Origin: a virus | Length of the DNA: 64,000 nucleotides | Direction: 5' to 3' (one strand) | IMG/VR virus record: IMGVR_UViG_3300027906_000003 | Coordinates: 59,821-123,820 of that record | Position numbers and translations under genes: made by a program | Part shown: positions 9,892 through 43,007 of the stretch, in pieces | How positions within the stretch are numbered: the stretch's first letter is position 1 | Layout: every line of letters starts with the position of its first letter | The notes under the pieces: model-generated | What the model saw: the letters and a program-made list of their open reading frames with translations, nothing else | Told to the model about the DNA's origin: nothing | Databases searched by the model: none

Positions 9892-9905
9892 CAGGAGTAT
9901 AAAGA

Positions 9906-10403
9906 ATGGCAACAATAGACCAATTTAAAGCGAACTTAATCGGAGGTGGACCAAGAGCCAACCGATTCAAAGTTTTTGTTCCTAGAACAGGAAACAAAAT
10001 TGAATTCTTGTGTAAAGCTTCTACTCTACCAGGTTCATCTTTTGGAGAGACGACTGTAAAATATATGGGTAATACTTTAAAATTACCTGGTGACAGAGCC
10101 TTTGAAAATTGGACAACAACAATCATCAATGATGTTAACTTTGAAGTTAGAACAGGTCTTGAATCTTGGATGAATGAGATACAAGGCACTGGAACTGGTG
10201 AAGGCTCAACAAGTCTTGACTACTTAGTAGACAGAGCTTTTGTTGAACAATTAGATAAATCGGATGCAGTGTTAGCTCGATATGAGTTCTTTAACATGTA
10301 TCCACAATCAGTTGCACCAATAACATTAGACTATGATAATGGTGACGCGGTACAGACATTTGATGCAGTATTCTCTTTTTCCCATTGGGAAAGAGTAGTT
10401 TAA
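9906..10403 (+). CDS. 19: Tail tube protein gp19
   Basis: A 165-residue homologue of T4 gp19 (163 residues), the hexameric-ring subunit of the inner tail tube. Conserved features are the N-terminal DQFKANLIGGGPRANRFKV, the CKASTLPGSS turn, the WTTTIINDVNF strand and the C-terminal FSFSHWERV. It follows the sheath gene by 14 bases and is preceded by AGGAG (9894-9898), so it is translated from the same late mRNA as gp18. Confidence 0.96.
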   Translation: MATIDQFKANLIGGGPRANRFKVFVPRTGNKIEFLCKASTLPGSSFGETTVKYMGNTLKLPGDRAFENWTTTIINDVNFEVRTGLESWMNEIQGTGTGEGSTSLDYLVDRAFVEQLDKSDAVLARYEFFNMYPQSVAPITLDYDNGDAVQTFDAVFSFSHWERVV

Positions 10404-10430
10404 TAAGTGAGATAACACCTAAAATGGTGT

Positions 10431-10438
10431 TATAAATA
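10431..10438 (+). promoter_or_regulatory. 20: T4-type late promoter box (TATAAATA)
   Basis: Perfect TATAAATA ending exactly 5 nt before the portal gene ATG at 10444; predicted leaderless late transcript. Confidence 0.8.
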
Positions 10439-10443
10439 ATAGT

Positions 10444-11985
10444 ATGGAATTATTCGGGTTTGAAATCACTCGTAAAAGAGACGAGTTAAGAGCAACAGAG
10501 GTTGATAAAAAAGCAATCTCTTTTGTGCCTCCAGTCGATGATGATGGCACACCAGTTATACAATCACAACCAGGTGGTTTTATTACAGGTGGTGCATATG
10601 GGTCATACATCGATATGGAAGGCGGTATTAAGAATGAGGCAGAACTCATTCGTAGATACCGTGAGATATCCTTAATACCTGAATGTGATTCAGCAATAGA
10701 GGATATCGTTAATGAGTGTATCACATCTGACACTTCGGATAGGATAGTTTCACTCGACCTCAGAGATGTAAAGCTCTCTGATAGCATCAAAGATAAGGTG
10801 CAAGACGAGTTTTATCACATCCTAAACATCATGAGATTCAATCAGAACTCTCATGAATTATTCAGAAAATGGTACATCGATGGTAGAGTCTACTTCCATA
10901 AGGTCGTGGATTCGAAACGACCTAAGGCAGGTATCGTTGACATCAGAAATATTGACCCTATAAAGATTAAGAAAGTTCGTAATATTGAGAAAGACAGAGA
11001 CAATAAGACGAATGTTGAAAAGATTACAAAGATGGAAGAGTTCTATCTTTTCAACGATAGAGGTTTTGATAAGAGTGGTTCTGGAGAAGGAAACACTGTT
11101 AAAATTGCACCAGAGGCAGTATGTTATACAACTTCTGGTCTACTAGACTACACTAAAAATGTTGTAGTTGGTTATCTTCATAAAGCAATGAAGACTGCAA
11201 ATCAACTATCTATGATAGAAGATGCACTTGTTATCTATAGGATATCAAGAGCACCAGAAAGAAGAATCTTCTACATCGATGTTGGTAACTTGCCAAAAGC
11301 AAAGGCAGAACAATACTTATCAGAAGTTATGAACAAGTATAGAAATAAACTTGTTTATAACGCACAGACAGGTGAAATCAAAGATGATAGAAAACACATG
11401 TCTATGATGGAAGATTTTTGGTTACCAAGAAGAGAGGGTGGAAGAGGAACAGAGATATCTACACTCCCAGGTGGTCAGAACTTAGATGATATTGCAGATA
11501 TAGAATACTTCAAAAAGAAACTATATCGTGCATTAAATGTGCCTATATCTCGTATGGAATCAGATAATGGTTTCAATATGGGTAAGTCATCTGAGATTAC
11601 GAGAGATGAATTGAAGTTTAATAAATTTACTAATAGACTTCAAAAGAAATTTGCAAGAGTATTCAACGATGTGTTGAGAACTCAGTTGATTCTGAAAGAG
11701 ATTGTTTCTGCAGAAGAGTTTGATAAAATTAAAGATTTTATTCAATACGATTGGGCAACAGACAACCACTTTACAGAATTAAAAGATGCAGAGATTATAC
11801 GAGAAAGAATGGACACACTTTCACAAGTAAGTGAGTATGTCGGCAAATATTACTCGAATGAGTATATTAGAAAGTATATCCTGAATCAAACGGAAGAGGA
11901 TATCAAAATCATCGATGCTCAGATAGAGCAAGAGGGTGGTTCTGGTGACGATAGTGAAAACGAAGATGACTTCGGAGGATTTTAA
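10444..11985 (+). CDS. 20: Portal protein gp20
   Basis: A 513-residue homologue of T4 gp20 (524 residues), the dodecameric head vertex protein that nucleates prohead assembly and is the DNA entry channel. Conserved segments include LIRRYREISLIPECDSAIEDIVNE, the RKWYIDGRVYFHKV strand, the IDPIKIKKVR turn, GYLHKAMKTANQLSMIEDALVIYR and FWLPRREGGRGTEISTLPGGQNL. Each is quoted in parts only. The C-terminus is acidic. The ATG lies 5 nt after a late box with no room for a Shine-Dalgarno. Confidence 0.97.
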   Translation: MELFGFEITRKRDELRATEVDKKAISFVPPVDDDGTPVIQSQPGGFITGGAYGSYIDMEGGIKNEAELIRRYREISLIPECDSAIEDIVNECITSDTSDRIVSLDLRDVKLSDSIKDKVQDEFYHILNIMRFNQNSHELFRKWYIDGRVYFHKVVDSKRPKAGIVDIRNIDPIKIKKVRNIEKDRDNKTNVEKITKMEEFYLFNDRGFDKSGSGEGNTVKIAPEAVCYTTSGLLDYTKNVVVGYLHKAMKTANQLSMIEDALVIYRISRAPERRIFYIDVGNLPKAKAEQYLSEVMNKYRNKLVYNAQTGEIKDDRKHMSMMEDFWLPRREGGRGTEISTLPGGQNLDDIADIEYFKKKLYRALNVPISRMESDNGFNMGKSSEITRDELKFNKFTNRLQKKFARVFNDVLRTQLILKEIVSAEEFDKIKDFIQYDWATDNHFTELKDAEIIRERMDTLSQVSEYVGKYYSNEYIRKYILNQTEEDIKIIDAQIEQEGGSGDDSENEDDFGGF

Positions 11986-11988
11986 TAA

Positions 11989-12153
11989 ATGAATGATATC
12001 GCAAAAGAAATAGTAGACCAAATAGAAGATGGTAAAATGGATAATGCCAAAGAAACAATCTTTAAAGGTTTACACCAAAAGGCTGCTGAGAACATCGACA
12101 TGAAAAGAGTCGAAACTCAGGTAAATTGGATGGATAAGAAAGAAGAAGAGTAA
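11989..12153 (+). CDS. 67: Small prohead core protein, gp67-like by position
   Basis: A 54-residue acidic/charged protein (MNDIAKEIVDQIEDGK...) starting 3 bases after the portal stop and overlapping the next ATG (TAATG). In T4 the small acidic core protein gp67 lies in exactly this place, between 20 and 68/21. Sequence similarity cannot be judged at this length; the call rests on position, size and charge. The segment GKMDNAKETIFKGLHQKAAENIDMKR is probably one long helix. Confidence 0.65.
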   Translation: MNDIAKEIVDQIEDGKMDNAKETIFKGLHQKAAENIDMKRVETQVNWMDKKEEE

Positions 12154-12452
12154 TGAAATCATTTCAACAGATGACAGAAGAACTAAACGAGGCAAAATCA
12201 ATGTTGCCTGTTGGTCATAGACAACTTAAAAATGAAGTTGTATCTGTTGGTGATAAGACTTTTAACTTATCTTATTCACAAAAGGGTAATGATGTCTTTG
12301 TATTTTTAGAAGGAATGGACACAGGTGATGTATACGAAGACCTCAAAAGTGCTGAAGCACAAATGAAAGACATAAAAGATGTCTTAAAATCTATGGGGGA
12401 ATCATTTTCCATAGAAGAATTTAAGGAGTTATTCAATGAAACTAATATCTGA
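12153..12452 (+). CDS. 68: Prohead core protein, gp68-like, with a capsid-targeting-type N-terminus
   Basis: A 99-residue protein between the gp67-like gene and the prohead protease, the position of T4 gp68. The N-terminus MKSFQQMTEELNEAKSM resembles T4 capsid-targeting peptides (MKTYQEF...-type). LNE followed by Ala at residues 11-14 fits the LxE cleavage rule of the gp21 protease. The same MKSFQQ start recurs in the protein at 24489. The rest is a beta-rich segment and an acidic helical C-terminus. It overlaps the gp21 start by 17 bases. Confidence 0.6.
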   Translation: MKSFQQMTEELNEAKSMLPVGHRQLKNEVVSVGDKTFNLSYSQKGNDVFVFLEGMDTGDVYEDLKSAEAQMKDIKDVLKSMGESFSIEEFKELFNETNI

Positions 12453-13089
12453 ATATAACGATTACGCAATATCACCTGTAATCATCGAACAAAACGAAAA
12501 AGGTGAGAAAGAATACTACATTGAAGGAGTATTCATGCAATCAGAAATTAAAAATAGAAACGGCAGAGTTTATCCAAAGAACATAATGGAGAAAGAAGTA
12601 GGTCGTTATAGAAAAGAATTCATTGAAAAAGACCGAGCATTCGGTGAGTTGGGACATCCAGAGGGACCAACTATTAATTTAGACAGAGTTTCCCATTTAA
12701 TTACATCACTAGAAGAAGATGGTGATAATTATATAGGGAGAGCAAAGATTTTAAGCACTCCAAATGGTCAAATCGTAAGAAGTTTGATTTCAGATGGTGC
12801 TAAATTAGGTGTTTCATCAAGAGGACTAGGTTCACTAGAGTCAAAAGGTGATGCACAATATGTTAAGGGTGACTTTCAGCTGGCAACAGCTGCGGACATC
12901 GTAGCAGACCCAAGTGCTCCAGAGGCCTTCGTTGAAGGAATCTATGAAGGAGTAGAGTGGGTAATGGAGAACGGTTTACTTAAAGCTGTTGAACTTGAAG
13001 CAATGCAGAGAGAAATCCGCACTGTCCAAGCGTCAAAACTAGAGGAAACCAAATTAAATTTATGGAAAAGGTTCGTTGAGAGTCTATAA
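12436..13089 (+). CDS. 21: Prohead protease gp21
   Basis: A 217-residue homologue of T4 gp21 (212 residues), the serine protease inside the prohead that cleaves scaffold and capsid proteins after LxE/IxE sites. Visible elements are GVFMQSEIKNRNGRVYP, the candidate catalytic His in FGELGHPEGP and the candidate Ser in KLGVSSRGLGS. A good Shine-Dalgarno (AAGGAG) precedes the ATG. It overlaps the gp68-like gene. Confidence 0.95.
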   Translation: MKLISEYNDYAISPVIIEQNEKGEKEYYIEGVFMQSEIKNRNGRVYPKNIMEKEVGRYRKEFIEKDRAFGELGHPEGPTINLDRVSHLITSLEEDGDNYIGRAKILSTPNGQIVRSLISDGAKLGVSSRGLGSLESKGDAQYVKGDFQLATAADIVADPSAPEAFVEGIYEGVEWVMENGLLKAVELEAMQREIRTVQASKLEETKLNLWKRFVESL

Positions 13090-13091
13090 CA

Positions 13092-13118
13092 TATAAATAA
13101 AAAAGTAAACTATAAATA
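13092..13118 (+). promoter_or_regulatory. 22: Tandem T4-type late promoter boxes before gene 22
   Basis: Two perfect TATAAATA boxes, 13092-13099 and 13111-13118, lie 19 nt apart upstream of the scaffold gene. This is the only exact tandem in the window and suits the very high expression of scaffold and capsid. A Shine-Dalgarno ACAGGAG sits just before the ATG at 13146. Confidence 0.8.
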
Positions 13119-13145
13119 GTTTAATACTCATAACAGGAGAAAAAA

Positions 13146-14507
13146 ATGGCAGAGTTAGAAAATAACCTAGAATCAACAGAAGAAGAAACTGTTGAAACAG
13201 TTGCGGAGGCAGGTCAACCTGACGCTAAGGCTGAAAAAGGTGACACAAAACCTGTTAAGCAAGGTTCATCCGACGAGGAGAAAATCGAATCGGGTAAGGG
13301 TGAGGTCGTTAAACCTGAAGAAAATCCTGTTGACAAATCAGTAGCATCAGTAAAAAAAGCTGGTGACGAAACTAAACAAGTTAAAGATGCAGTAAACAAA
13401 TCTGCACCTGCTCCTGAGAAATCAGAAAAACTTAAAGAAGATGAAGATTCTGCGAAAGACGAAGTTAAAATGTCTAAAATGGAATCAATCAAGGCGATTG
13501 TCAACAACATGAAGGATATGACCAAAGAGGAACTTCAAAAAACTTTTGGTGAAATGTCAGAAGAAGAAGTTGACGAGACCTTGACTAAAGCAGAAGTCGC
13601 TAGAAAAATCGTTGAAATGCTTAAAGCAATGGATGAAGAAGCAGTTCTTAAAATTGCAGAGAAGTATGAAGACGAAGAAGAAGAAGACGATGATGACGAT
13701 GACAATGACGAAATGGAAGAGTCAGTCGACACATCAGACTTAGAATCTTCATTAGTAGAGATAGAAGTTGAAGACGACCTCAATGCAATCTCAGAAGCAC
13801 TCGACTTATCAGAAGAGAATGCAGAGAAAGCTAGAACAATCTTTAAAGCAGCTGTTCAATCAAAAGTTGCAGAGATTAAAGAGTCTTTAGAATCTCAGTA
13901 TTCAGACGAATTAAAAACCTCAGTAGAAAAAGTCAAAGGTGACCTTGCGGAAGCAGTTGATAAATATCTTACATATTGTGCAGAAGAGTGGACGAAAGAA
14001 AACGAACTTGCAATAGAAAGAGGTTTGAGAGCGGAAATGACTGAAAACTTTATCGAAGGAATGAAAACATTGTTCACTGAACACTATGTTGAAGTACCAG
14101 AAGATAAGTATAATGTCATGGACGAACTCGCAAATAGACTCGATGAAATGGAACAAAAACTCGATTCAGAAGTTTCCAAGAATATGGAAGTTTCAGAAGA
14201 GTTAGATTCATTGAAGAGAGCAAATGTGGTCAGAGAAGCCTGTGAAGACTTAACTGAATCACAAAAAGAGAAAATGGAATCACTTTCAAACGGAGTAGAC
14301 TTCAAAGATACAGCAGATTTCTCAGAGAAAGTTGCTGAAATCAAAGAAGCTTATTTCGGTCAAGTTGAGGGTGACAACATTGCAGAAGAAATGACTGTAG
14401 AAGAAGGAACAGGTTCTTTCGAAGATGATTCATCATCAGAAGAAGTTCTTGACCCAACTATTGCAAGATATTCATCTGCTATAAGTAAACTAAAACCATT
14501 AGGTTAA
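13146..14507 (+). CDS. 22: Prohead scaffolding core protein gp22
   Basis: A 453-residue, strongly acidic, helical protein in the place of T4 gp22 (269 residues), the main scaffold that is degraded by gp21 during maturation. The first 130 residues are a Glu/Lys/Ala/Pro-rich low-complexity extension not found in T4. An acidic run of Asp/Glu lies around residues 175-195. The C-terminal half (from about 200) is a long helical region ending in LDPTIARYSSAISKLKPLG, typical of marine T4-like scaffolds. It lies between the protease and the major capsid gene, with tandem late promoters. Confidence 0.9.
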   Translation: MAELENNLESTEEETVETVAEAGQPDAKAEKGDTKPVKQGSSDEEKIESGKGEVVKPEENPVDKSVASVKKAGDETKQVKDAVNKSAPAPEKSEKLKEDEDSAKDEVKMSKMESIKAIVNNMKDMTKEELQKTFGEMSEEEVDETLTKAEVARKIVEMLKAMDEEAVLKIAEKYEDEEEEDDDDDDNDEMEESVDTSDLESSLVEIEVEDDLNAISEALDLSEENAEKARTIFKAAVQSKVAEIKESLESQYSDELKTSVEKVKGDLAEAVDKYLTYCAEEWTKENELAIERGLRAEMTENFIEGMKTLFTEHYVEVPEDKYNVMDELANRLDEMEQKLDSEVSKNMEVSEELDSLKRANVVREACEDLTESQKEKMESLSNGVDFKDTADFSEKVAEIKEAYFGQVEGDNIAEEMTVEEGTGSFEDDSSSEEVLDPTIARYSSAISKLKPLG

Positions 14508-14527
14508 TTTAAAGGAAAAATGTAAAA

Positions 14528-15832
14528 ATGTTTTTATCAGAAAATTTACAAGAAAAATGGTCTCCTATACTTGAGCACTCAGATTTACCAAAAATCGAAG
14601 ACAACTATAAGAGAGCTGTAACCGCAGTTATCCTTGAAAACCAAGAGAAAGCCCTAAACGAAGATAGAGCAACTCTTGAAGAAGCTGCACCTTTAAATGC
14701 TACTGGTTCTGCAATTAGTAATTGGGACCCAATCCTTATTTCACTAGTTCGTAGAGCTATGCCAAATCTCGTTGCTTACGACATTTGTGGTGTTCAACCA
14801 ATGACAGGTCCAACAGGTCTTATCTTTGCTATGAAAGCAAGATATCATGACGATGTTAACGCGACTAGAGATAATATGTCAGAAGCTTTATTTAATGAAG
14901 CTCGTTCAACATACTCTAATTCGCCTCAAACAACTTCAACTTCTGTAGGTTCTGACCCAATTGGTGACCCATTCGACACATCATCTCCTTCATACGCAGA
15001 CACTACTGGTGCTGGTATGTCAACAGCTAACGCTGAAGCATTAGGTGATGCGGCGGGCAACCATTTTGCAGAAATGGCTTTCACAATCGAGAAAGCAACT
15101 GTGACTGCAAAATCCAGAGCATTAAAAGCTGAGTATACACTCGAATTAGCACAAGACCTCAAAGCAATCCACGGTCTTGATGCAGAATCAGAATTGGCAA
15201 ACATCTTATCATCTGAGATTCTTGCTGAAATCAACCGTGAAGTTATCAGAAATGTTAACATGCAGGCTAAAACAGGTGCGTCAGCAACTGCTTCAGCAGG
15301 TACTTTCAACTTAGATGTTGATGCAAACGGAAGATGGTCAGTTGAGAAATTCAAAGGTTTGATTTTCCAAATCGAAAGAGAAGCTAATGTAATAGCAAAA
15401 GAAACACGAAGAGGTAAAGGTAACTTTATTCTTTGTTCTTCTGATGTTGCATCTGCTCTTTCAATGGCAGGAGTATTAGATTACGCACCTGCTTTATCAA
15501 CTTCTTTAAATGTTGATGACACAGGCAATACATTTGCTGGTGTTCTTAACGGTAAAGTTAAAGTATACATCGACCCTTATGCAGGTGTTGATTATATGAC
15601 AGTTGGTTACAGAGGAAGCAATCCTTATGACGCTGGTCTATTCTATTGCCCATATGTTCCACTTCAAATGGTGAGAGCAGTTGGCGAGAATACTTTCCAA
15701 CCGAAAATTGGTTTCAAAACAAGATACGGAATGGTATCTAATCCTTTTGTTGGTGCTACACCAGCTGACGGAATGGCAACTGCCGGAACAAACCAATACT
15801 ACAGAAAGATGGCTGTTTCAAACATTCTATAA
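14528..15832 (+). CDS. 23: Major capsid protein gp23
   Basis: A 434-residue homologue of T4 gp23 (521 residues before cleavage). It has the classic N-terminal delta domain, which should be removed by gp21 after Glu52 in TLEEAAPLNATG, fitting the LxE rule. Other signatures are ISLVRRAMPNLVAYDICGVQPMTGP (quoted in part), LIFAMKARY and the C-terminal FKTRYGMVSNPF. Codons are richer in C/G-ending synonyms than neighbours, as expected for the most expressed gene. A strong terminator lies 26 bases downstream. Confidence 0.98.
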   Translation: MFLSENLQEKWSPILEHSDLPKIEDNYKRAVTAVILENQEKALNEDRATLEEAAPLNATGSAISNWDPILISLVRRAMPNLVAYDICGVQPMTGPTGLIFAMKARYHDDVNATRDNMSEALFNEARSTYSNSPQTTSTSVGSDPIGDPFDTSSPSYADTTGAGMSTANAEALGDAAGNHFAEMAFTIEKATVTAKSRALKAEYTLELAQDLKAIHGLDAESELANILSSEILAEINREVIRNVNMQAKTGASATASAGTFNLDVDANGRWSVEKFKGLIFQIEREANVIAKETRRGKGNFILCSSDVASALSMAGVLDYAPALSTSLNVDDTGNTFAGVLNGKVKVYIDPYAGVDYMTVGYRGSNPYDAGLFYCPYVPLQMVRAVGENTFQPKIGFKTRYGMVSNPFVGATPADGMATAGTNQYYRKMAVSNIL

Positions 15833-35277: not shown

Positions 35278-35306
35278 AAAAAAGGGTGCTTATGTGCCCT
35301 TTTTTT
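35278..35306 (+). terminator. Rho-independent terminator
   Basis: AAAAAAGGGTGC / GTGCCCTTTTTT stem (two G-T pairs near the loop TTAT) followed by T's. It separates the replication/regA block from the late curli cassette. Confidence 0.88.
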
Positions 35307-35327: not shown

Positions 35328-35335
35328 TATAAATA
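35328..35335 (+). promoter_or_regulatory. T4-type late promoter box (TATAAATA) of the curli cassette
   Basis: Perfect TATAAATA ending 5 nt before the ATG at 35341. It is the only strong late box seen before the whole 35.3-42.8 kb cassette. Confidence 0.8.
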
Positions 35336-35340
35336 ATGGC

Positions 35341-35637
35341 ATGGAAGATATCTTTGGATTAATAAGTGAAGTCGGAGCCCCTATTGCTGGAAGTCTAGTT
35401 ATGGGGTTTTTTATCTTTACAGTAATCAAACAGATATTAGAAGGCGTAGTAGACGATATAAAAACTCTTACTATGTTCTGTAAGTCACTGGAAAACCGTG
35501 CAAGAACCATGTCTAACGAAATGATTAAGATAGATATGTTAGTAAGTTCAGCGTTAGAACTTAGGCCTGATATAGAGCGAGTCGCAAGGGCAGAGAACTT
35601 TATAGAAGACGGCAAAGTAGACGCTAGGAGAGACTAG
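35341..35637 (+). CDS. Membrane/coiled-coil protein (paralogue A)
   Basis: A 98-residue protein with a membrane segment (residues about 8-32, SEVGAPIAGSLVMGFFIFTVI) and a helical tail. The start DIFGLISEVGAPI closely parallels LAQLISEYGFPI of the next gene, so the two look like tandem paralogues. Topology resembles the protein at 1798. Possible holin or membrane adaptor; unproven. Its stop overlaps the GTG of the next gene. Confidence 0.65.
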   Translation: MEDIFGLISEVGAPIAGSLVMGFFIFTVIKQILEGVVDDIKTLTMFCKSLENRARTMSNEMIKIDMLVSSALELRPDIERVARAENFIEDGKVDARRD

Positions 35638-35891
35638 TGGAAAACCTGGCACAACTTATATCCGAATACGGATTTCCAATCGTTATGATGGTTGGCTTGG
35701 GGTATTTTGTATACTACATCTGGTGGTTTGTCGGAGAAAAACTAGAACCAGAAATCGAAGAGCAACATATGGCATTAATAAGATTGATTGACCAAGTTCG
35801 TATGTTAGACCAAGACCTTATTCGACTGCAACAAAAGGTTGATGTAGTTTTAGAATATAGGGAAAATGAAAAGAAGAAGGAGATAAAATGA
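35637..35891 (+). CDS. Membrane/coiled-coil protein (paralogue B)
   Basis: An 84-residue protein starting at GTG 35637 on the previous stop. Membrane segment at residues 12-33 (FPIVMMVGLGYFVYYIWWFV), then a heptad-patterned helix (MALIRLIDQVRMLDQDLIRLQQKV). It overlaps the CsgF-like gene by 4 bases (ATGA). Confidence 0.65.
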   Translation: MENLAQLISEYGFPIVMMVGLGYFVYYIWWFVGEKLEPEIEEQHMALIRLIDQVRMLDQDLIRLQQKVDVVLEYRENEKKKEIK

Positions 35892-36457
35892 AGAACACAG
35901 AAGGAAGCTTTACAGGTAAGAAACTTGCTTTAATCAAAATGGCAAAATCACCTATAGTTTTTATGTTTGTATGTCTCTTCCTATTACTTGTATCACTTCC
36001 ATTATCTTCAACAGAGATAGTTCACAAGTTTAAAAATCCAAGTTTCAGTGGAATAGGAACAGCATCACATTATTTAACCGTGGAGAACCAAGAGTTTTCG
36101 CGTAAGAAAGCAATCGAAGAGGCCTTAGAGGCTGCGAGAAAAGCGGCTGAGAGAGAAGAGAATAACACAACCTTAGCAAAATTTATTAGAAATTTAGAAT
36201 CGAGAATTTATGCCCAAATGGCAAAACAGTTAGTTGAAAATATGTTCAACAACGATAATCCAGTTAGATTTGGGTCATTCGTATTAGAGGGTTCAACAGT
36301 CACCTATGAAGTTATAACAAATGTAGACGGAACAGAATTCATAAGAATGACTATTATATCAGAAGACGGAACAGAAACAATATTAGAAATACCAATTGGA
36401 AGTGGAAACTTCGGGAGTGACGATGGCTCAGGTGACGGCTCGACTGACGGCGGTTAG
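35888..36457 (+). CDS. csgF: CsgF-like curli assembly protein
   Basis: A 189-residue protein with one N-terminal hydrophobic signal/anchor (residues about 20-41) followed by a CsgF-like mature part: STEIVHKFKNPSFSGIG... (the 'F.NPSFGG' region that inserts in the CsgG pore), a helical middle (IRNLESRIYAQMAKQLVENMF) and FGSFVLEGSTVTYEVITNVDGTEFIRMTI. In curli systems CsgF couples fibre nucleation to the secretion pore. The Gly/Ser/Asp-rich tail is shaped by its 35-base overlap with csgG. Confidence 0.85.
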   Translation: MKNTEGSFTGKKLALIKMAKSPIVFMFVCLFLLLVSLPLSSTEIVHKFKNPSFSGIGTASHYLTVENQEFSRKKAIEEALEAARKAAEREENNTTLAKFIRNLESRIYAQMAKQLVENMFNNDNPVRFGSFVLEGSTVTYEVITNVDGTEFIRMTIISEDGTETILEIPIGSGNFGSDDGSGDGSTDGG

Positions 36458-37346
36458 TCTATCAATACTTATACTTGCATCTTGCGCGTCCGTTCCTAGA
36501 TTTTCAAACGACCCACAAGAATGTAATCCAGAAACATGGGGTGAAGAATACAACCATGATTTGTGGAACTATGCTAAGGCAGCGGGTAGAACTTTTGAAA
36601 GAGCAATGCCTTTCATTTGTGTTGATGAACCACAACCAGTTAAACTTCCAAGTTTTATACAGTTATTAGATTTACCACCAGCAGAATCATCACCTGTTGT
36701 TGCAGTATATAAGTTTCAAGATTTAACAGGTCAAAGAAAAGCACAAGACAATATAGCCTCTTTCTCTACTGCTGTGACACAAGGTGGAACTGAGATGCTC
36801 ATTGATGCACTCAAAACTGCAGGTTCTGGAACTTGGTTCAGAGTGGTAGAGAGACAAGGTTTAGACCACCTTGTTAGAGAAAGGCAAATTATTCGTTCTG
36901 CCAGAGACGATATTGCAAAGAAAAAGGGAGAGGAATCTCCAGGTGTTGCACCACTTTTATTTGCAGGAATGATTATCGAGGGTGGAATTATTGGTTACGA
37001 TACCAATCTTGAAAGTGGTGGCCGAGGTGCCAGAACATTAGGGATTGGTATGAGTAGAATGTATAGAAAGGATGCTGTGACAGTTTCATTAAGAGCAGTA
37101 TCAGTTCTAACAGGTGAAGTATTATTAAATGTCCAAACAAGAAAGACTATCCTTTCTTATGGCGGAGGAGGCGATGTGTTTCGATTCATTGAAGAAGGAA
37201 CACAACTAGTCGAGTTCGAGGACGGAGTGGGAAATAATGAGTCAGTGACTTATGCAACACGGTCAGCTATTGAAGCTGCTGTGTTCGAATTAATACACCA
37301 AGGCCATGATAGAGGGTATTGGGAAATAAAAGGAAAAGAAAAATGA
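36423..37346 (+). CDS. csgG: CsgG-like outer-membrane secretion channel lipoprotein
   Basis: A 307-residue lipoprotein: short signal with lipobox LASC (Cys21) and then the CsgG domain: PVVAVYKFQDLTGQRK, TQGGTEMLIDALKTAG, WFRVVERQGLDHLVRERQIIRS, LFAGMIIEGGIIGYDTNLESGGRGAR, DAVTVSLRAVSVLTGEVLLNV. CsgG forms a nonameric outer-membrane pore for export of unfolded curli subunits. ATG 36423 is chosen because it gives a proper lipoprotein signal. Unusual for a phage; see findings. Confidence 0.93.
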   Translation: MAQVTARLTAVSLSILILASCASVPRFSNDPQECNPETWGEEYNHDLWNYAKAAGRTFERAMPFICVDEPQPVKLPSFIQLLDLPPAESSPVVAVYKFQDLTGQRKAQDNIASFSTAVTQGGTEMLIDALKTAGSGTWFRVVERQGLDHLVRERQIIRSARDDIAKKKGEESPGVAPLLFAGMIIEGGIIGYDTNLESGGRGARTLGIGMSRMYRKDAVTVSLRAVSVLTGEVLLNVQTRKTILSYGGGGDVFRFIEEGTQLVEFEDGVGNNESVTYATRSAIEAAVFELIHQGHDRGYWEIKGKEK

Positions 37347-38071
37347 AAAAATATCTATTAGCGCTAAGTATATTTCTTTCTACACCTTTTCTGTTTGCCG
37401 CTGCGGACGATGATAACGAAATTAACATAACACAAACTGGTGATACTTTAACATTATATATTGACCAGATTGGTTATGGAAACAAAATGGGATTGGATAA
37501 CTTTGATAGTAGTTCAAGTGCCATGCCTATCACAGGTACTTCGTTGACTTTTAACATCGACCAGCTGGGTAACGAGAACTTACTCTATGGTAAGGTCACA
37601 GCAGATTCTTCATCTTACACTTTAGAGTGGAATGGTGATAGTAATGTTTGGGACTGGATGATAGGTGAAACAGGTTCATCAGATACTACAAATATGTTAG
37701 TAGACATAACTGGTGACTCTAATACAATGGACTTTGACCAAGGTTCAGTTGCTCAAGCAGAGAGGTTAGATTTCGATTTAATAGTAATTGGTAGCTCCAA
37801 TGTTTTTGATGTAGATGTTGAATCAGATGATGCAACCTGGGATTTTGATATAACAGGTGCTTCAAACAACATCAACACATTGCAAAAAGATGGTGCTTAT
37901 CATAACATCACTTTTGAATTGACTGGTGATTCTGCAGATGTAGACATCAATCAGTTAAGTGGAACATGCCCACAAGGTGTTTCTACTTGCAAAGGTCAGA
38001 TTACATTGGACATTACAAGTGATAACTCAACTATCCAAATCAATCAGAAAGACACATCTAACGATTCTTAG
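37343..38071 (+). CDS. Curlin-like (CsgA/CsgB-type) secreted protein
   Basis: A 242-residue protein with a clean signal peptide (MKKYLLALSIFLSTPFLFA) and a repetitive beta-rich mature part rich in Asn, Gln, Asp and Thr. Repeats carry the curlin-like spacing of N-x-I-x-Q-x-G-x (EINITQTG, LYIDQIGYGN, FNIDQLGNEN, VDINQLSG, IQINQKD). Two Cys lie near the C-terminus. It overlaps csgG by 4 bases (ATGA), so the pore and its likely cargo are coupled. Confidence 0.8.
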   Translation: MKKYLLALSIFLSTPFLFAAADDDNEINITQTGDTLTLYIDQIGYGNKMGLDNFDSSSSAMPITGTSLTFNIDQLGNENLLYGKVTADSSSYTLEWNGDSNVWDWMIGETGSSDTTNMLVDITGDSNTMDFDQGSVAQAERLDFDLIVIGSSNVFDVDVESDDATWDFDITGASNNINTLQKDGAYHNITFELTGDSADVDINQLSGTCPQGVSTCKGQITLDITSDNSTIQINQKDTSNDS

Positions 38072-39188
38072 TATCTTACTCTTCATGGGGTCTGTTCAGG
38101 CAGACTCCATCGGAGATATAGTTGAATCAACAGGTATTGGTTCTGTTCTTAGAAACAATACCGAAATAGGCAACGATGTTGGAACAGGAATTGTTCTCTA
38201 TGATGAGGCAATAACAGGAAACGGCAGAATGCTTATTGAGTTCCTTGATGAAGAGGAACTTGCACTTACAGAACACACACAAGTATACATAGACGAAGTA
38301 TACTACGACCCAAATCCAAGTTTATCCAAGATGTCTTTAAGAATGGTTCAAGGCACCGCAAGATTTGCTTCTGGAAATGGACAAAGAATTAAAAAGTCTA
38401 ACATAGACATACGAACACCTACGGCACAAATAGCAATCCGTGGAACAGATTTCACAACAACCATTGACGAACTCGGAAGGAGTTTGATAGTTTTACTTCC
38501 TGATAGATTCGGAGATTCATCAGGAGAGATAACAGTTATAAATGATGGTGGAGAAATAGTCTTAGATAAGGCATTTCAAGCAACAATGGTTACAAGTTTA
38601 GATAGTCCTCCAACTCCACCAGTCACAATAACAAATTTAACAGTTAATCAAATAGATAATATGTTCATCGTTGCACCACCACCTGCAGTAGAACAAGCAG
38701 TTGAGGAACAGGCAAGAGATGATAACAACGAAGACCAAGGAATACTAGATGTAGATTTCTTAGAGTTCAATGAACTAGAAAAGGACTATGATGATTATGC
38801 AAATGACCCAGACTATGATGCAAGATATAGTTCTATTGATATTGATTTCTTAGATGCAGACTTTCTAGTGGACATGTTAGATGTCGTTGAAGAATTAATT
38901 AAAACTACAAAAGATTTAGGAGATAGACAAGCATCATCAGGTGGTGGTGCTGGAAGTTCAGATTTTAATATAAAAGGTGCCTCTTTTGGTAAGAATACAG
39001 ACTCACAATACAACATTTTTGTTGAAGATGGTGGTCTTGTATTCTATAGAGAGGTTGAAGGAAAGATAAGATTGGTATTTCAAGCAGGTGCCTCAGTAAG
39101 ATTAGACACTAGAGTTCCAACTTATGAGGGTGTTATAACAGTAAATGGTGGTGATGAAATCTTCATTTACATCAACCAATCTAACTAA
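38019..39188 (+). CDS. FecR-domain protein with signal peptide
   Basis: About 389 residues. A FecR domain occupies roughly residues 30-160: GIVLYDEAITGNGRMLIEFLDEEELALTEHTQVYID..., LRMVQGTARFASGN, IDIRTPTAQIAIRGTDFTT (parts quoted). An acidic linker and a Gly-rich C-terminal domain follow. I favour GTG 38019, which gives a signal sequence (KSIRKTH, then LTILSILLFMGSVQA); an ATG at 37959 is the alternative. It overlaps the curlin-like gene. FecR proteins transmit periplasmic signals, and FecR genes often neighbour CHASE2 cyclases in bacteria. Confidence 0.8.
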   Translation: MITQLSKSIRKTHLTILSILLFMGSVQADSIGDIVESTGIGSVLRNNTEIGNDVGTGIVLYDEAITGNGRMLIEFLDEEELALTEHTQVYIDEVYYDPNPSLSKMSLRMVQGTARFASGNGQRIKKSNIDIRTPTAQIAIRGTDFTTTIDELGRSLIVLLPDRFGDSSGEITVINDGGEIVLDKAFQATMVTSLDSPPTPPVTITNLTVNQIDNMFIVAPPPAVEQAVEEQARDDNNEDQGILDVDFLEFNELEKDYDDYANDPDYDARYSSIDIDFLDADFLVDMLDVVEELIKTTKDLGDRQASSGGGAGSSDFNIKGASFGKNTDSQYNIFVEDGGLVFYREVEGKIRLVFQAGASVRLDTRVPTYEGVITVNGGDEIFIYINQSN

Positions 39189-39191
39189 ATA
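39185..39191 (+). promoter_or_regulatory. Possible late promoter box (CTAAATA)
   Basis: CTAAATA on the stop of the FecR gene, upstream of a strong GAGGAGG and the 49-residue ORF at 39224. Confidence 0.35.
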
Positions 39192-39223
39192 CCACTACGA
39201 CAACATAAAAAAGAGGAGGTCGT

Positions 39224-39373
39224 ATGATAAATATGTTATCACAACTCCGTTCATGGCATGAAGACCAACTATTTGGATTTCAAAAAGCAATGAGACTAGA
39301 TGACTACCATATGTTATGGATTGCATTTAGTAAAGGGGTTCTATTAACGATGATATTACTATGGATTATATAA
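39224..39373 (+). CDS. Small membrane protein, 49 residues
   Basis: MINMLSQLRSWHEDQLFGFQ followed by a C-terminal hydrophobic helix (FSKGVLLTMILLWII). A strong GAGGAGG precedes the ATG at 39224. Its end overlaps the second curlin-like gene by 13 bases. No family recognised. Confidence 0.6.
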   Translation: MINMLSQLRSWHEDQLFGFQKAMRLDDYHMLWIAFSKGVLLTMILLWII

Positions 39374-40167
39374 CTAAATCATTATTGACATTAATTATAG
39401 GGGTATTTTTTACCCCTATAGTTTCAGCAGGTGACAACCATGTTCATGTTGAACAAGTTGCCGGCGGAGATAATTTTGAATTAAATATCACTCAAATCGG
39501 ATTTGAACAAATGATTCGATTCTCTTTTGACCATGCCAACAACGATGTAAATCTAATACAAAAAGGAAACAACATGTATATCGGATATACTGATGCGTGG
39601 GGTTCAGGTAAAGCATGGGGTGGAGATTTAGATGGTATAGATAATGAAGTCGATATAAGGCAAAGATGTTCTTTTGCAACTTGTAATGAAACTGATTTCC
39701 AATTTCACATTTGGGGAGACGACAATGAAGTTGTCTTTGGTCAAGGATATGAAAACAATAACAGCACTACACCAAACTGGAATTACGATGGTACCGAACC
39801 TGGTGGAAACTTTGTGAGATTAGATATACATGGTGATGATAACAAATTTAAAGGAAGTCAAAAACAAGATTCAAGTTCAATTAATCATTCTATTACTGCA
39901 AACATATACGGAGATAATAATGATGTATGGGTTAAACAGATGCAGAATGGTGATAAGACTTTAAATCTAACAATCAATAGTGATTGGAATGAAGTTGCAA
40001 TCCAACAAAAGAACAATGGAGCTCATACAGCAACAATTAGTTTAACTGGAACAGAGGCAATTACTATGTTCTTAAATCAAGTGGGAAATACAACTCAATC
40101 ATATTCACTAACACAAAATTGTGTTACCGTTGGTGGTTGCACTGTTAGCGTCACACAAGGTAACTAA
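39361..40167 (+). CDS. Second curlin-like secreted protein
   Basis: A 268-residue protein with a signal peptide (residues 1-23, ending VSA-GD) and a repetitive mature region of N/Q/G-rich beta repeats (FELNITQIG, VNLIQKGNN, VWVKQMQNG, VAIQQKNNG, MFLNQVGN, VSVTQGN). Repeats such as GDDNEVVFGQG and GDNNDVWVKQ fit the curlin S/N-x5-Q pattern. With the gene at 37343 it may form a major/minor (CsgA/CsgB-like) pair. Confidence 0.8.
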   Translation: MDYITKSLLTLIIGVFFTPIVSAGDNHVHVEQVAGGDNFELNITQIGFEQMIRFSFDHANNDVNLIQKGNNMYIGYTDAWGSGKAWGGDLDGIDNEVDIRQRCSFATCNETDFQFHIWGDDNEVVFGQGYENNNSTTPNWNYDGTEPGGNFVRLDIHGDDNKFKGSQKQDSSSINHSITANIYGDNNDVWVKQMQNGDKTLNLTINSDWNEVAIQQKNNGAHTATISLTGTEAITMFLNQVGNTTQSYSLTQNCVTVGGCTVSVTQGN

Positions 40168-40168
40168 C

Positions 40169-40237
40169 ATGTCAATCAAAGCAAAAGCAATACGATTCCT
40201 TGAATGGTGTCTAACCAAGGTAGTATCATGGAAGTAG
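40169..40237 (+). CDS. Possible 22-residue amphipathic peptide
   Basis: MSIKAKAIRFLEWCLTKVVS followed by WK: a short cationic amphipathic helix candidate. It starts 2 bases after the curlin stop and overlaps the next gene. No clear Shine-Dalgarno apart from AAGG. Reality is uncertain. Confidence 0.3.
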   Translation: MSIKAKAIRFLEWCLTKVVSWK

Positions 40238-40488
40238 AATGTCCAGAAGAATATTACGAATGTCTCACATATGAAGAGTTTGATGAGATAGTAGACATAT
40301 TAGAAGAGAATGATATTCCAATGCCAGAAGCAATGGGTGATGCAGAAGCAGCCGCAAATTTTGTTTGGCAAGTTCTCTTTCTAACACCAGTCGAACTAAT
40401 CTACATTGGTATTACTATGACAGTTCTTGCTACATATGGACTCTCTATATACTACATGTATAAAAGAATACAAAAGAAATTTTCATGA
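40228..40488 (+). CDS. Small membrane protein, 86 residues
   Basis: An acidic N-terminal half (MEVECPEEYYECLTYEEFDE) with two Cys and a C-terminal membrane region (residues about 50-78, FLTPVELIYIGITMTVLATYGLSIYYM) ending in a basic tail. Start at ATG 40228 is preferred over GTG 40204. Its TGA overlaps the ATG of the following small gene (ATGA). Confidence 0.6.
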   Translation: MEVECPEEYYECLTYEEFDEIVDILEENDIPMPEAMGDAEAAANFVWQVLFLTPVELIYIGITMTVLATYGLSIYYMYKRIQKKFS

Positions 40489-40625
40489 GTTATCCCCAAA
40501 GAGTCGTTGATATGGTCAACGAATACAGAAGAAATGAACGAAAGAAATTTTGGTCAAAAACTTGGTCAATATTTTTAGCCTGTGTTTTAATAGGTGGTGC
40601 TTTATATCTCTTCTTCTATGTTTAG
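40485..40625 (+). CDS. Small membrane protein, 46 residues
   Basis: MSYPQRVVDMVNEYRRNERK, then a membrane segment (residues about 28-45, SIFLACVLIGGALYLFFYV). It overlaps the previous gene by 4 bases and the cyclase ATG by 8. Co-translation is likely. Confidence 0.6.
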   Translation: MSYPQRVVDMVNEYRRNERKKFWSKTWSIFLACVLIGGALYLFFYV

Positions 40626-42465
40626 TTGGAAATCAGTTTTAATATCCATATCTTTACTTGTTGGTTTGAAGATATGGTCACCATACCTTGTAGAAAATAT
40701 ACAATGGTCATGGTTCGATGTATTACACCAACAGAAAGGAGAATATTATGTCAATGACATCGTTCTTGTCGACATTGATGAGAAAACTTTGGAAGTTCTT
40801 GGTCAGTATCCATTACCTCGCAGTGATTATAGTAAACTCATGCTTGATAGTCATTATAGCAATACTCATGTTTTTAGTATGGTCTTTAGTGAACCTGACC
40901 GAACCCCTAACGAAGACTTATTATTCGCAGAAGGACTTGTAAATAGACTTTCGATACTAAGCAGCGCGCCTAGCCCACAAAAAGATTCAGGAGTTGCACC
41001 TTTTGTTGGAACTTCCACACTAGGAGGTGCAGAGGCAAAAGACTTTATATGGAATTATTCGGGGATAGTATCACCCATTCCCATACTTAGAGATAATACT
41101 TACGGTGTTGGGGTAACCTCCTCAACTCCACCGATTACGGGAACACCAAACTTTGACGGAACAGTTCGTTCTGCACCACTATTAGTCTATGCAAATGACC
41201 AAGTATATCCTTCAGTTGCACTAGAAACTCTTCGTGCATTCTTAGACCAGAAATCATATCAGTTAAAAGTCACACCTGAAATGGGTGTAGAGTGGGTCAG
41301 AATGGGTAGAAATCCACCCATATCTACAACACCTACAGGTGATGTTATGATATCATATTGGAATACATTTCAAAGAATATCTGCAGTTGATTTACCTGAA
41401 TCAAACTTAGAGGGTAAGATTCTTATATGGGGTCTTACTGCAGAGGGTCTTAATAATCCAGTTTCAACCCCAATGGGTGTAATGTATCCTCACGAAGTTC
41501 AAGCAAACCTAATCCAAACCGTCTTGCAAGACATTCGAATACAACAATCCTACTATCTTGAACAGCTCGAGATTGTTCTTCTGGTGTCAGTTCTCTTATT
41601 GATACTTCTGATGGTTTATAAACTTCCCACAGTTCTTGCGGGGATAATGAGTCTAAGTATTGTTGCACTTCAGCTGGGTGGGGGTTTCTATTTCTGGACT
41701 TCTCAACTCGTTCTTTTCGATACCTTTTTTTCATCGGTTAGCTCCTTGTTGATATTCGGACATGCTTCGTTTAACAAATACTATATCACATACCAAGAGA
41801 AACAACAAATCAAAAAGCAGTTCCAAAAATATTTATCTCCTGATATGATTGAAGAACTACAAAAAGACCCATCAAAATTGAGACTTGGTGGAGATAGAAG
41901 AGAGATGTCCTTCATGTTTATGGACATAATCGGATTTACCCCCATAAGCGAACACTATATGAAAGAAGATAATCCTGAGGGATTAGTAGAACTGATAAAC
42001 AAGTTCTTGGACATGCAAACCAAAATAATACTAAATAATAAAGGAACCATAGATAAGTATATGGGCGATTGTATCATGAGCTTTTGGAATGCGCCTCTTG
42101 AATGTAAAGACCACGCCGACCTTGCTGTAAAATCTGCCCTTGAAGTGCTTGAAGCAACGGAGAAATTAAATGAAGAACTTGAACCTCTTAACCTGCCTCC
42201 TATTAATGTGGGCATCGGCATCAGCACAGGCGAATGTATTGTCGGAAACATGGGTTCCGAACTTAGATTTGACTATTCCGTCATCGGAGATGCAGTCAAC
42301 CTCGGTGCTAGACTCGAAGGCCAAACAAGAAATTATCCTGGGGTTAACTTGTTGTTATCGGAAGGAACTTATAGACAATGTAAGAAAGGAGCATTCTCAG
42401 AAGTTGATAGAATCAAGGTTAAGGGAAAGGAAATACCAGTCACTATCTACACTCCGATTACATGA
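40618..42465 (+). CDS. CHASE2-domain class III adenylate/guanylate cyclase
   Basis: A 615-residue membrane receptor cyclase. An N-terminal membrane segment is followed by a periplasmic CHASE2 region (YYVNDIVLVDIDEKTLEVLGQYPLPRSDYSKL, in parts; later DGTVRSAPLL, YPSVALETLR). About three membrane segments follow (near residues 315-380), then the catalytic domain: FMFMDIIGFT (metal Asp436), KYMGDCIMSFWNAP (metal Asp484), RFDYSVIGDAVNLGARLEG (with the transition-state Asn/Arg). All catalytic residues are present, so activity is expected. The substrate is probably ATP, from family patterns; this is not certain. Confidence 0.92.
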   Translation: MFSWKSVLISISLLVGLKIWSPYLVENIQWSWFDVLHQQKGEYYVNDIVLVDIDEKTLEVLGQYPLPRSDYSKLMLDSHYSNTHVFSMVFSEPDRTPNEDLLFAEGLVNRLSILSSAPSPQKDSGVAPFVGTSTLGGAEAKDFIWNYSGIVSPIPILRDNTYGVGVTSSTPPITGTPNFDGTVRSAPLLVYANDQVYPSVALETLRAFLDQKSYQLKVTPEMGVEWVRMGRNPPISTTPTGDVMISYWNTFQRISAVDLPESNLEGKILIWGLTAEGLNNPVSTPMGVMYPHEVQANLIQTVLQDIRIQQSYYLEQLEIVLLVSVLLLILLMVYKLPTVLAGIMSLSIVALQLGGGFYFWTSQLVLFDTFFSSVSSLLIFGHASFNKYYITYQEKQQIKKQFQKYLSPDMIEELQKDPSKLRLGGDRREMSFMFMDIIGFTPISEHYMKEDNPEGLVELINKFLDMQTKIILNNKGTIDKYMGDCIMSFWNAPLECKDHADLAVKSALEVLEATEKLNEELEPLNLPPINVGIGISTGECIVGNMGSELRFDYSVIGDAVNLGARLEGQTRNYPGVNLLLSEGTYRQCKKGAFSEVDRIKVKGKEIPVTIYTPIT

Positions 42466-42769
42466 ACCCATAAGTGATGTTCAATGGGGTATATTCTATA
42501 CTCTTCAAGTTTTAGATGTCTTTACTACCTATAAAGGTCTTCAATACGATTGTGTTGTAGAAATTAATCCTATTATTGGAGAAAGACCTAGTCTCAACAA
42601 AATGATTTTCACCAAGGTGGCTATTCTAACACCTGCAATTAGAGCTGACATGAAAAAAGGCACTGTAGACAGACACATTATGTCAGAAATAAATTTTTTA
42701 ATGTCTGTTGTAATCATGAATAACTATGAAATTTGGCAAGATTCCACCAAAAAGTGCAATAAAATTTAA
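42170..42769 (+). CDS. Unknown protein overlapping the cyclase gene
   Basis: The frame is open from 42170 and the last 304 bases lie beyond the cyclase stop. That unique part (LHEPISDVQWGIFYTLQVLDVFTTYKGLQYDCVVEINPIIGE, in parts) looks like a real membrane-associated protein, loosely like DUF5658. The part inside the cyclase, in another frame, reads as a signal peptide (NLLTCLLLMWASASAQA). Either the gene overlaps the cyclase by 296 bases or it starts later; I cannot decide from sequence alone. Confidence 0.5.
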   Translation: MKNLNLLTCLLLMWASASAQANVLSETWVPNLDLTIPSSEMQSTSVLDSKAKQEIILGLTCCYRKELIDNVRKEHSQKLIESRLRERKYQSLSTLRLHEPISDVQWGIFYTLQVLDVFTTYKGLQYDCVVEINPIIGERPSLNKMIFTKVAILTPAIRADMKKGTVDRHIMSEINFLMSVVIMNNYEIWQDSTKKCNKI

Positions 42770-42813: not shown

Positions 42814-43007
42814 AGAGAACTTAAAAAGAGCTCGGAATCTGGGTTGAAATCGTAAATGGAACCAATTGGCCAATAACCGATAGATACAAGGGGACTTAAA
42901 AAGAGCTCGGTTCTCTAACACAGTGGAGAGTTCTAGGTAGAGGCAATCTATAAAGACTAATTGACTGGTCAAAGTGTAGCCACATTAAATCCTAGACACT
43001 TCCACAC
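42814..43007 (+). ncRNA. Candidate structured RNA upstream of hsp20
   Basis: About 250 bases without a gene between the promoter and the Hsp20 ATG. The first domain (42814-42916) is closed by AGAGAAC (42814-42820)/GTTCTCT (42910-42916). It contains two copies of ACTTAAAAAGAGCTCGG (42819-42835 and 42894-42910) and the palindrome ATTGGCCAAT. A second domain (about 42922-43007) pairs GTGGA with TCCAC and TCTAGG (42932-42937) with CCTAGA (42991-42996), and has the hairpin TTGA-CTGG-TCAA. No similarity to a riboswitch or tRNA that I know was seen. It could be a riboswitch, thermosensor or stand-alone RNA. Confidence 0.6.

Follow-up and report, generated by a model that had tools for sequence, protein, structure and literature searches.

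A curli-type secretion operon in a phage, with two probable further genes overprinted on its cyclase gene

What does a phage operon that joins a curli secretion pore to an envelope sensor and a nucleotide cyclase make, and how many proteins does it encode? The operon comes from a marine phage and lies in a 64,000-nucleotide stretch of IMG/VR record IMGVR_UViG_3300027906_000003 (positions 59,821 to 123,820; hereafter the window), at window positions 35341-42769, behind a T4-type late promoter (Table 1). A sequence-only reading of the window had described it as a phage operon for curli-type (type VIII) secretion that also holds genes for a FecR-domain protein and a CHASE2 cyclase. Domain matches and linkage agreed with this description, all the genes it named were found in their places by Pfam, PHROGs and alignments, and the module is almost certainly a type VIII secretion system (T8SS) by identity.

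Table 1. Features of the curli module and its cyclase gene, in window coordinates
Feature	Position	Strand	Basis and remarks
Intrinsic-terminator-like hairpin	35284..35306	+	GGGTGC-TTAT-GTGCCC + T7; upstream of module; read from sequence, not in scan tool's list
T4-type late promoter TATAAATA	35328..35335	+	exactly 5 nt to first gene's ATG
Small membrane/coiled-coil protein 1, 98 aa	35341..35637	+	phrog_18771, PHROGs 6.4e-24; no Pfam match
Small membrane/coiled-coil protein 2, 84 aa	35637..35891	+	paralogue of protein 1; phrog_18771 6.2e-25
CsgF, 189 aa	35888..36457	+	PF10614 3.6e-13
CsgG outer-membrane pore lipoprotein, 307 aa	36423..37346	+	PF03783 1.9e-54; lipobox LASC
Curlin-like secreted protein A, 242 aa	37343..38071	+	PF07012 0.0019; aligns with HTVC008M and Melnitz curlins
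FecR-domain exported protein, 389 aa	38019..39188	+	PF04773 8.7e-9; signal peptide
Small ORF, 49 aa	39224..39373	+	ORF call; one predicted transmembrane segment
Curlin-like secreted protein B, 268 aa	39361..40167	+	aligns with HTVC008M and Melnitz curlins; homologues in 55 loci
Small membrane protein, 86 aa	40228..40488	+	ATG 40228; homologues in 6 loci
Small membrane ORF, 46 aa	40485..40625	+	ORF call
CHASE2 receptor class III nucleotide cyclase, 615 aa	40618..42465	+	PF05226 2.8e-31, PF00211 3.4e-17
ANTI, probable antisense overprinted gene, 94 aa	41450..41734	-	within cyclase codons 286-380; synonymous constraint, Shine-Dalgarno (SD) and start, nested copies
ANTI SD, AAGGAG	41742..41747	-	embedded in cyclase codons; conserved only with ANTI present
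ORF2, 199 aa	42170..42769	+	PF18902 2.1e-6; +1 frame; signal-peptide-like N-terminus, C-terminal DUF5658

CsgF, CsgG, FecR and CHASE2 matched their profiles. Curlin-like A scored slightly under the curated cut-off of PF07012 and curlin-like B had no Pfam match, but the alignments to phage curlins support both; each keeps curlin-type repeats, and the profiles of both families match ORFs adjoining CsgG in bacteria. Taken singly, the curlin-like proteins are weaker matches than CsgF and CsgG. The gene order is common to 80 IMG/VR loci and, therefore, the linkage is not due to chance; the genes are not scattered in relatives, and the reading withstands the refuting conditions that it had set for itself. 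The terminator that the reading placed before the unit can be read as a hairpin, and its claim of one late unit is consistent with the late promoter, which suggests late expression. Of 79 loci, 51 have this motif no more than 45 nt 5' of the first gene, with -13 as its commonest position, and the window contains 12 copies, all of them on the plus strand. The starts chosen for CsgG (ATG 36423, followed by the lipobox), FecR (GTG 38019) and the cyclase (ATG 40618) probably correct earlier gene calls; cyclase residue numbers given here count from GTG 40594.

The module had already been published. The reading regarded the combination of sensor and cyclase as uncharacterised, which was wrong: Wittmers et al. 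2022 (PMC9599517) described CsgF-CsgG-curlin-FecR-curlin-adenylate cyclase in pelagiphages of the Podoviridae and Myoviridae, and Zaragoza-Solas et al. 2020 (PMC7029224) and Buchholz et al. 2022 (PMC9004378) described the CsgF/CsgG part. The present module is another member, with genes and order (small membrane proteins, CsgF, CsgG, curlin, FecR, curlin, cyclase) matching the pelagiphage module of podo- and myophages. The three roles that the reading proposed, namely fibres, phage exclusion and a lysis pore, are also in these papers, and the present data do not decide among them. Pelagibacter phage HTVC008M and Methylophilales phage Melnitz share the core gene order, with identities of 47% and 43% for CsgG, 40% and 34% for FecR, and 41% and 35% for the cyclase, respectively. 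Bacterial curli operons (E. coli csgBAC/csgDEFG and the alphaproteobacterial forms) have CsgF, CsgG and curlin repeats in common with the phage module, which differs in lacking recognised CsgE, CsgD and CsgC and in having FecR and the cyclase added. CsgE was absent from the Pfam matches of the module proteins, as was noted before (PMC9599517), and is dispensable in E. coli (PMC7029224). A Hyphomonas chromosome (L090) carries CsgF-CsgG-curlin-FecR-CHASE2 cyclase. An origin of the module in the Hyphomonadaceae was rejected because the L090 FecR was found in 1 of 105 genomes of that family; L090 may thus be donor or recipient.

The two membrane/coiled-coil proteins at the start of the unit are paralogues, as the reading had seen, and both belong to phrog_18771. 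The literature names these first genes histidine kinases (PMC9599517). This was rejected, since the proteins are only 98 and 84 aa long and Pfam found no kinase ATPase or dimerisation domain in them. The FecR protein has a signal peptide and no further transmembrane segment, and no sigma factor was found among the module proteins scanned against Pfam. A FecIR-type anti-sigma regulator, which would need a cognate FecI and an inner-membrane anchor, was therefore also rejected; the protein shares just the FecR domain with that type. The cyclase keeps the metal Asp, the adenine-binding Lys and the transition-state Asn/Arg. A search of the 123.8-kb record for cyclic-nucleotide-binding domains found none and, thus, any cAMP effector would have to come from the host.

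The most likely product of the operon is a curli-like fibre on the envelope, made in the late phase of infection. Transcribed late from its T4-type promoter, the operon would supply curlin-like A and B, which host Sec would export and the CsgG pore would then pass across the outer membrane; CsgF would be the surface adaptor, and the infected cell would come to bear a curli-like fibre. The exported FecR protein and the CHASE2 cyclase, with its sensor domain in the periplasm, may form an accessory sensor pair that would turn the state of the envelope into cytoplasmic cAMP. In the present phage clade, the cyclase gene would be a triple-coding locus for the cyclase, ORF2 and ANTI. ORF2 would be an exported DUF5658 protein with its first ~100 residues encoded over the catalytic domain. 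ANTI would be a helical protein of ~94-110 aa encoded on the opposite strand over the cyclase membrane region. We consider this combination of late fibre, sensor pair and triple-coding cyclase gene the best overall explanation and a reasonably probable one.

Another possible explanation is that CsgG and CsgF only permeabilise the outer membrane as a lysis timer, a gated pore or pinholin substitute, with the curlins as relics or plugs. This was proposed for Melnitz (PMC9004378), and it fits the missing CsgE gate (PMC9599517) and the short holin-family match (1.3e-4, 20 residues) of membrane/coiled-coil protein 2. Melnitz-infected cells did not clump (PMC9004378), which counts against a fibre, and the absence of CsgE was likewise counted against it. 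However, two curlin-like genes are present in nearly all intact loci and a curlin occupies the corresponding position in a related bacterial operon, suggesting that cargo is maintained; keeping two such genes with the pore argues for cargo. The premise that Melnitz lacks curlins also conflicts with the Melnitz record, where two curlin-repeat proteins are annotated. A fibre is moderately favored over a pore-only function, which we regard as unlikely.

The reading overlooked the probable antisense gene within the cyclase gene. Across related cyclases, fourfold synonymous differences fall to 0.22 in the ANTI region compared to 0.53-0.57 in the flanks, and this dip (from ~0.55) occurs only where ANTI exists. 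Under ANTI, position 3 of the cyclase codon, which pairs with the middle ANTI codon base, is the only one suppressed (0.263 vs 0.47-0.57); positions 1 and 2 are not. Suppression of position 3 alone fits selection at the protein level and not general nucleotide selection. The SD and start of ANTI were found in 36 of 38 loci and in none of 20 controls. ANTI had 247 matches in IMG/VR; among the 80 fetched loci it was nested in the cyclase in all 80, and no free-standing copy was found. On the cyclase tree, ANTI shows one gain and one loss. An AlphaFold model predicts a helical protein with confidence (pLDDT 80), and this predicted fold had no match in the PDB or BFVD. The sequence had none in Pfam, PHROGs, 50,697 phage records or the PDB sequences. 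In a single genome the open frame is unexceptional, since 3 of 300 permutations in the window were as long. A scan found no consensus sigma-70 promoter for ANTI; the visible TTGTTG-17-TATAGT scores 8 of 12.

The ORF ending at 42769 is more than a downstream gene: its first 296 nt are overprinted on the 3' end of the cyclase, an overlap that the reading did not recognise. The +1 frame of ORF2 is open for 96-137 codons there, compared to permuted means of 5-23 (0 of 1000 permutations in each of 17 loci), and it is closed in 11 controls. Synonymous differences fall to 0.33-0.40 from 0.55, again only where ORF2 exists. Apart from DUF5658, ORF2 had no match in Pfam or PHROGs, none in the 50,697 phage records and, for its predicted fold, none in the PDB.

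The two constraints were separated by a four-way fourfold synonymous test on 58 non-redundant cyclases, whose loci are related so that the counts are not independent events. With both genes present (n=31), the values were 0.221 in the ANTI region, 0.399 in the ORF2 region and 0.53-0.57 elsewhere. They were 0.231 and 0.557 with ANTI only (n=7), 0.453 and 0.332 with ORF2 only (n=7), and 0.638 and 0.696 with neither (n=13). ANTI and ORF2 are under selection at the protein level, and on this comparative evidence both are very probably real protein-coding genes.

The constraint on the cyclase could instead reflect RNA structure, a regulatory antisense RNA or codon usage. Antisense frames over membrane segments do tend to be long because of their composition (in permutations, the longest open run averaged 49-75 codons). 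Such causes are nevertheless highly improbable, given that the constraint is limited to one codon position, starts and stops with each ORF and is normal again in the clade that lost ANTI. The conserved start and SD, and the continuation of ORF2 into DUF5658 with no start codon between the cyclase stop and that domain in the window, also point to proteins. ORF2 might also be made without its own start, by a +1 frameshift near the end of the cyclase that yields a cyclase-DUF5658 fusion, as every locus with ORF2 has an unbroken +1 frame across the end of the cyclase. This is very unlikely: in many loci the open frame is bounded by a stop just before the MKN start, the N-terminus is signal-peptide-like in most loci, GGAG precedes the ATG in the window, and a search, which was not systematic, identified no shared slippery site. 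It is possible, if doubtful, that both proteins serve the curli module, with ORF2 acting in the envelope and ANTI being a built-in regulator, probably expressed early, that controls either the operon or cAMP signalling. If so, this regulator could not be inherited without the cyclase.

Both overprinted proteins appear to be new. Wittmers et al. (PMC9599517) make no mention of ANTI or of the ORF2 overlap, and HTVC008M, Melnitz and the Hyphomonas chromosome lack both genes. In the available text of their reports, the bacterial genes pop, antisense to ompA (PMC7103648), and laoB (PMC5810103) resemble ANTI as protein genes nested antisense in an older gene through overprinting, and rest mainly on expression in a single species or strain. 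In contrast, ANTI is in a phage, is conserved over dozens of divergent genomes and places a direct synonymous constraint on its host gene. It clearly exemplifies a protein that arose antisense within a phage gene, with one origin, one loss and hundreds of relatives, and combines this direct evidence of constraint with a confidently predicted fold that has no known match. The disputed reality of long antisense ORFs in prokaryotic systems thereby becomes directly testable. In phage lambda, Rz1 of the Rz/Rz1 pair is likewise a secreted protein whose gene lies in the +1 frame of a second gene. The present proteins are unrelated to that pair; here, the host gene encodes a signalling enzyme and one partner is antisense.

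Annotation pipelines skip these two conserved proteins because they lie inside another gene, and deleting the phage cyclase would take out up to three proteins together. A simple synonymous-constraint scan of viral metagenomes can reveal such overprinted genes. Elsewhere in the operon, synonymous differences along CsgF, CsgG, curlin A, FecR and curlin B gave no sign of hidden genes, with dips only at short gene junctions; the curlin B scan, with only 7 sequences, showed a shallow dip.

Three studies (Wittmers et al. 2022, PMC9599517; Zaragoza-Solas et al. 2020, PMC7029224; Buchholz et al. 2022, PMC9004378) already cover the curli-type module in whole or in part and, therefore, it is known and not new as a combination. 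The new part is two conserved overprinted genes inside its CHASE2 cyclase gene: ANTI, a predicted 94-aa antisense gene, and ORF2, which encodes a predicted 199-aa DUF5658 protein. Neither is found in these three papers or in annotated phage records. The sequence-only reading had the gene content right, as all the genes it named were recovered. Its suggestion that the combination with a sensor and cyclase was uncharacterised is contradicted by Wittmers et al. (PMC9599517), who described the module, FecR and adenylate cyclase included, in podophages and myophages alike and discussed superinfection defence, sibling capture and pore import as possible roles. For CsgF/CsgG, together with the idea of lysis, the sources are Zaragoza-Solas et al. 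(PMC7029224) and Buchholz et al. (PMC9004378).

The full virus record is 123,820 bases long. Its major capsid protein shares 66-67% identity with the Melnitz and HTVC008M counterparts, which makes the phage a T4-like marine myophage that has no close isolated relative. Between the hairpin and the heat-shock-like gene lie TM1 and TM2 (small membrane/coiled-coil paralogues), CsgF, CsgG, curlin-like A, FecR, curlin-like B, small membrane ORFs, the cyclase and the DUF5658 ORF. The order TM1-TM2-CsgF-CsgG-curlin-FecR-curlin-cyclase was kept, with few exceptions, in the best 80 CsgG relatives from IMG/VR wherever the contig was long enough, and HTVC008M and Melnitz share the core order. The "histidine kinases" of earlier literature are 98 and 84 aa in the window with no kinase domain, and judging by sequence this name needs correcting for the window proteins. 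The Melnitz record (MZ577097.1, 52015-54809) annotates two curlin-repeat proteins, which is at odds with the accompanying paper, where csgA and csgB are stated to be missing and the pore-only lysis model rests on that (PMC9004378).

Features in and around the module (window coordinates)
Feature	Position	Strand	Remark
Hairpin + T-run	35284-35306		read from sequence; upstream of module
Late promoter motif TATAAATA	35328	+	exactly 13 nt upstream of A of module's first ATG
Module	35341-42769		
Small ORFs in gaps	39224-39373, 40228-40488, 40485-40625		one predicted transmembrane segment in each
CHASE2 cyclase	40618-42465	+	
ANTI	41734-41450	-	antisense to cyclase codons 286-380
ORF2	42170-42769	+	starts 296 nt ahead of cyclase stop, +1 frame; C-terminal continuation is DUF5658 domain
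17-base direct repeat ACTTAAAAAGAGCTCGG	42819-42908		two copies; non-coding, between module and heat-shock-like gene
Small heat-shock-like gene	~43020		downstream of module

Composition makes antisense frames across membrane segments long, so the openness of the ANTI frame in any single genome is weak evidence, and the case for ANTI as a gene rests on comparison among loci. Homologues sit at the same cyclase position in 22 loci of the first set. An alignment-based search found 247 related stretches in IMG/VR, and all 80 that were retrieved are antisense-nested in a cyclase (69 with ORF2 as well). Mean identity over shared DNA in the core set was 63% for ANTI and 72% for the cyclase; control cyclase stretches read in ANTI's antisense frame gave 32-49%. 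A GGAG-type Shine-Dalgarno and start were kept in 36/38 loci, and none of 20 controls had these with a frame of ANTI length.

Four-fold synonymous differences were then compared by region in 58 non-redundant cyclases, grouped by whether they carry ANTI, ORF2, both or neither.

Four-fold synonymous differences per cyclase region
Group	n	Upstream	Under ANTI	Between	Under ORF2
ANTI and ORF2	31	0.565	0.221	0.534	0.399
ANTI only	7	0.569	0.231	0.480	0.557
ORF2 only	7	0.456	0.453	0.511	0.332
Neither	13	0.595	0.638	0.622	0.696

Bootstrap intervals over codons did not overlap (0.161-0.287 under ANTI vs 0.488-0.607 in the flanks). RNA structure or another nucleotide-level constraint could also lower synonymous change, but change under ANTI was suppressed only at cyclase codon position 3, the middle base of the ANTI codon, and proceeded at a normal rate at position 2, the ANTI wobble base. 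A nucleotide-level constraint would not give such a pattern. On a cyclase tree built with the overlap columns left out, two changes suffice for the antisense gene. It was gained once, at the root of a clade of 42 rows (SH-aLRT 98), and lost once, in a clade of four rows where synonymous change was back to normal. For ORF2, seven changes were needed.

The AlphaFold model of ANTI (mean pLDDT 80, pTM 0.63) has helices and a small hairpin, with no fold match at E < 0.001 by Foldseek against PDB and BFVD. Apart from ANTI, no gene in this stretch is likely to lie on the minus strand, and all TATAAATA sites in the window are plus-strand, so ANTI is probably transcribed separately from the late genes; the promoter scan established no promoter for it. 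In three other loci (L046, L076, L081) an antisense frame is open for 116-120 codons at cyclase codons ~247-367, nearly ANTI's place, a length reached in 0/200 codon permutations. These frames lack similarity to ANTI and may represent an antisense gene of separate origin or one that has diverged completely.

The first set included 35 long cyclases, and ORF2 accompanied 23 of them. In loci with ORF2, the open +1 frame extends over 96-137 codons ahead of the cyclase stop. When synonymous codons were shuffled within each gene (17 non-redundant loci, 1000 permutations each), the mean open run was 8-23 codons and the observed length was never reached in any locus; 11 cyclases without ORF2 had no excess openness. 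The N-terminus is signal-peptide-like in most loci, weakly so in some, and cysteines are conserved in the overprinted part (61 and 62) and the DUF5658 part (128 and 196), a pattern that would suit a periplasmic protein. The predicted structure is helical, with low confidence for the first 40 residues, and had no match in PDB. In two loci (L026, L030), a DUF5658 ORF without the ORF2-type N-terminus sits after curlin B and before the cyclase; this suggests that the gene gained its overprinted part once it lay behind the cyclase.

In a set of 80 genome contigs with CsgG relatives, most of the bacterial contigs carry CsgF and CsgG, some with curlins, and lack FecR or cyclase of the module kind. 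The 705-kb contig L090, from Hyphomonas, carries CsgF-CsgG-curlin-FecR-CHASE2 cyclase at 9363-15386 with chromosomal genes on both sides and, thus, the FecR-cyclase pair can belong to a cellular curli operon. This operon is possibly a cellular relative or a recipient of the phage module. Such a pair occurred in 1 of 105 genomes of the same family, so L090 may have donated the module or received it.

Curlin-like fibres would most likely be secreted late through CsgG-CsgF, and FecR and the CHASE2 cyclase would most likely sense the envelope, with the cyclase making cAMP. The cyclase retains the metal-binding Asp, Lys and Asn/Arg of active class III enzymes; a search of the 123,820-base record found no cyclic-nucleotide receptor. 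In 51/79 loci, TATAAATA occurs no more than 45 nt ahead of the first module gene, most commonly at the 13-nt spacing of the window; other loci instead have a Shine-Dalgarno and the motif at -27 or -29. The window holds 12 sites, all on the plus strand, and four (10431, 24476, 35328, 61853) have exactly 5 nt between motif and ATG, a gap that recurs at the first curli-module gene in many related phages. In T4 late-promoter geometry, such spacing would place the transcript start at or beside the ATG, and by this analogy late mRNAs from these sites would be leaderless.
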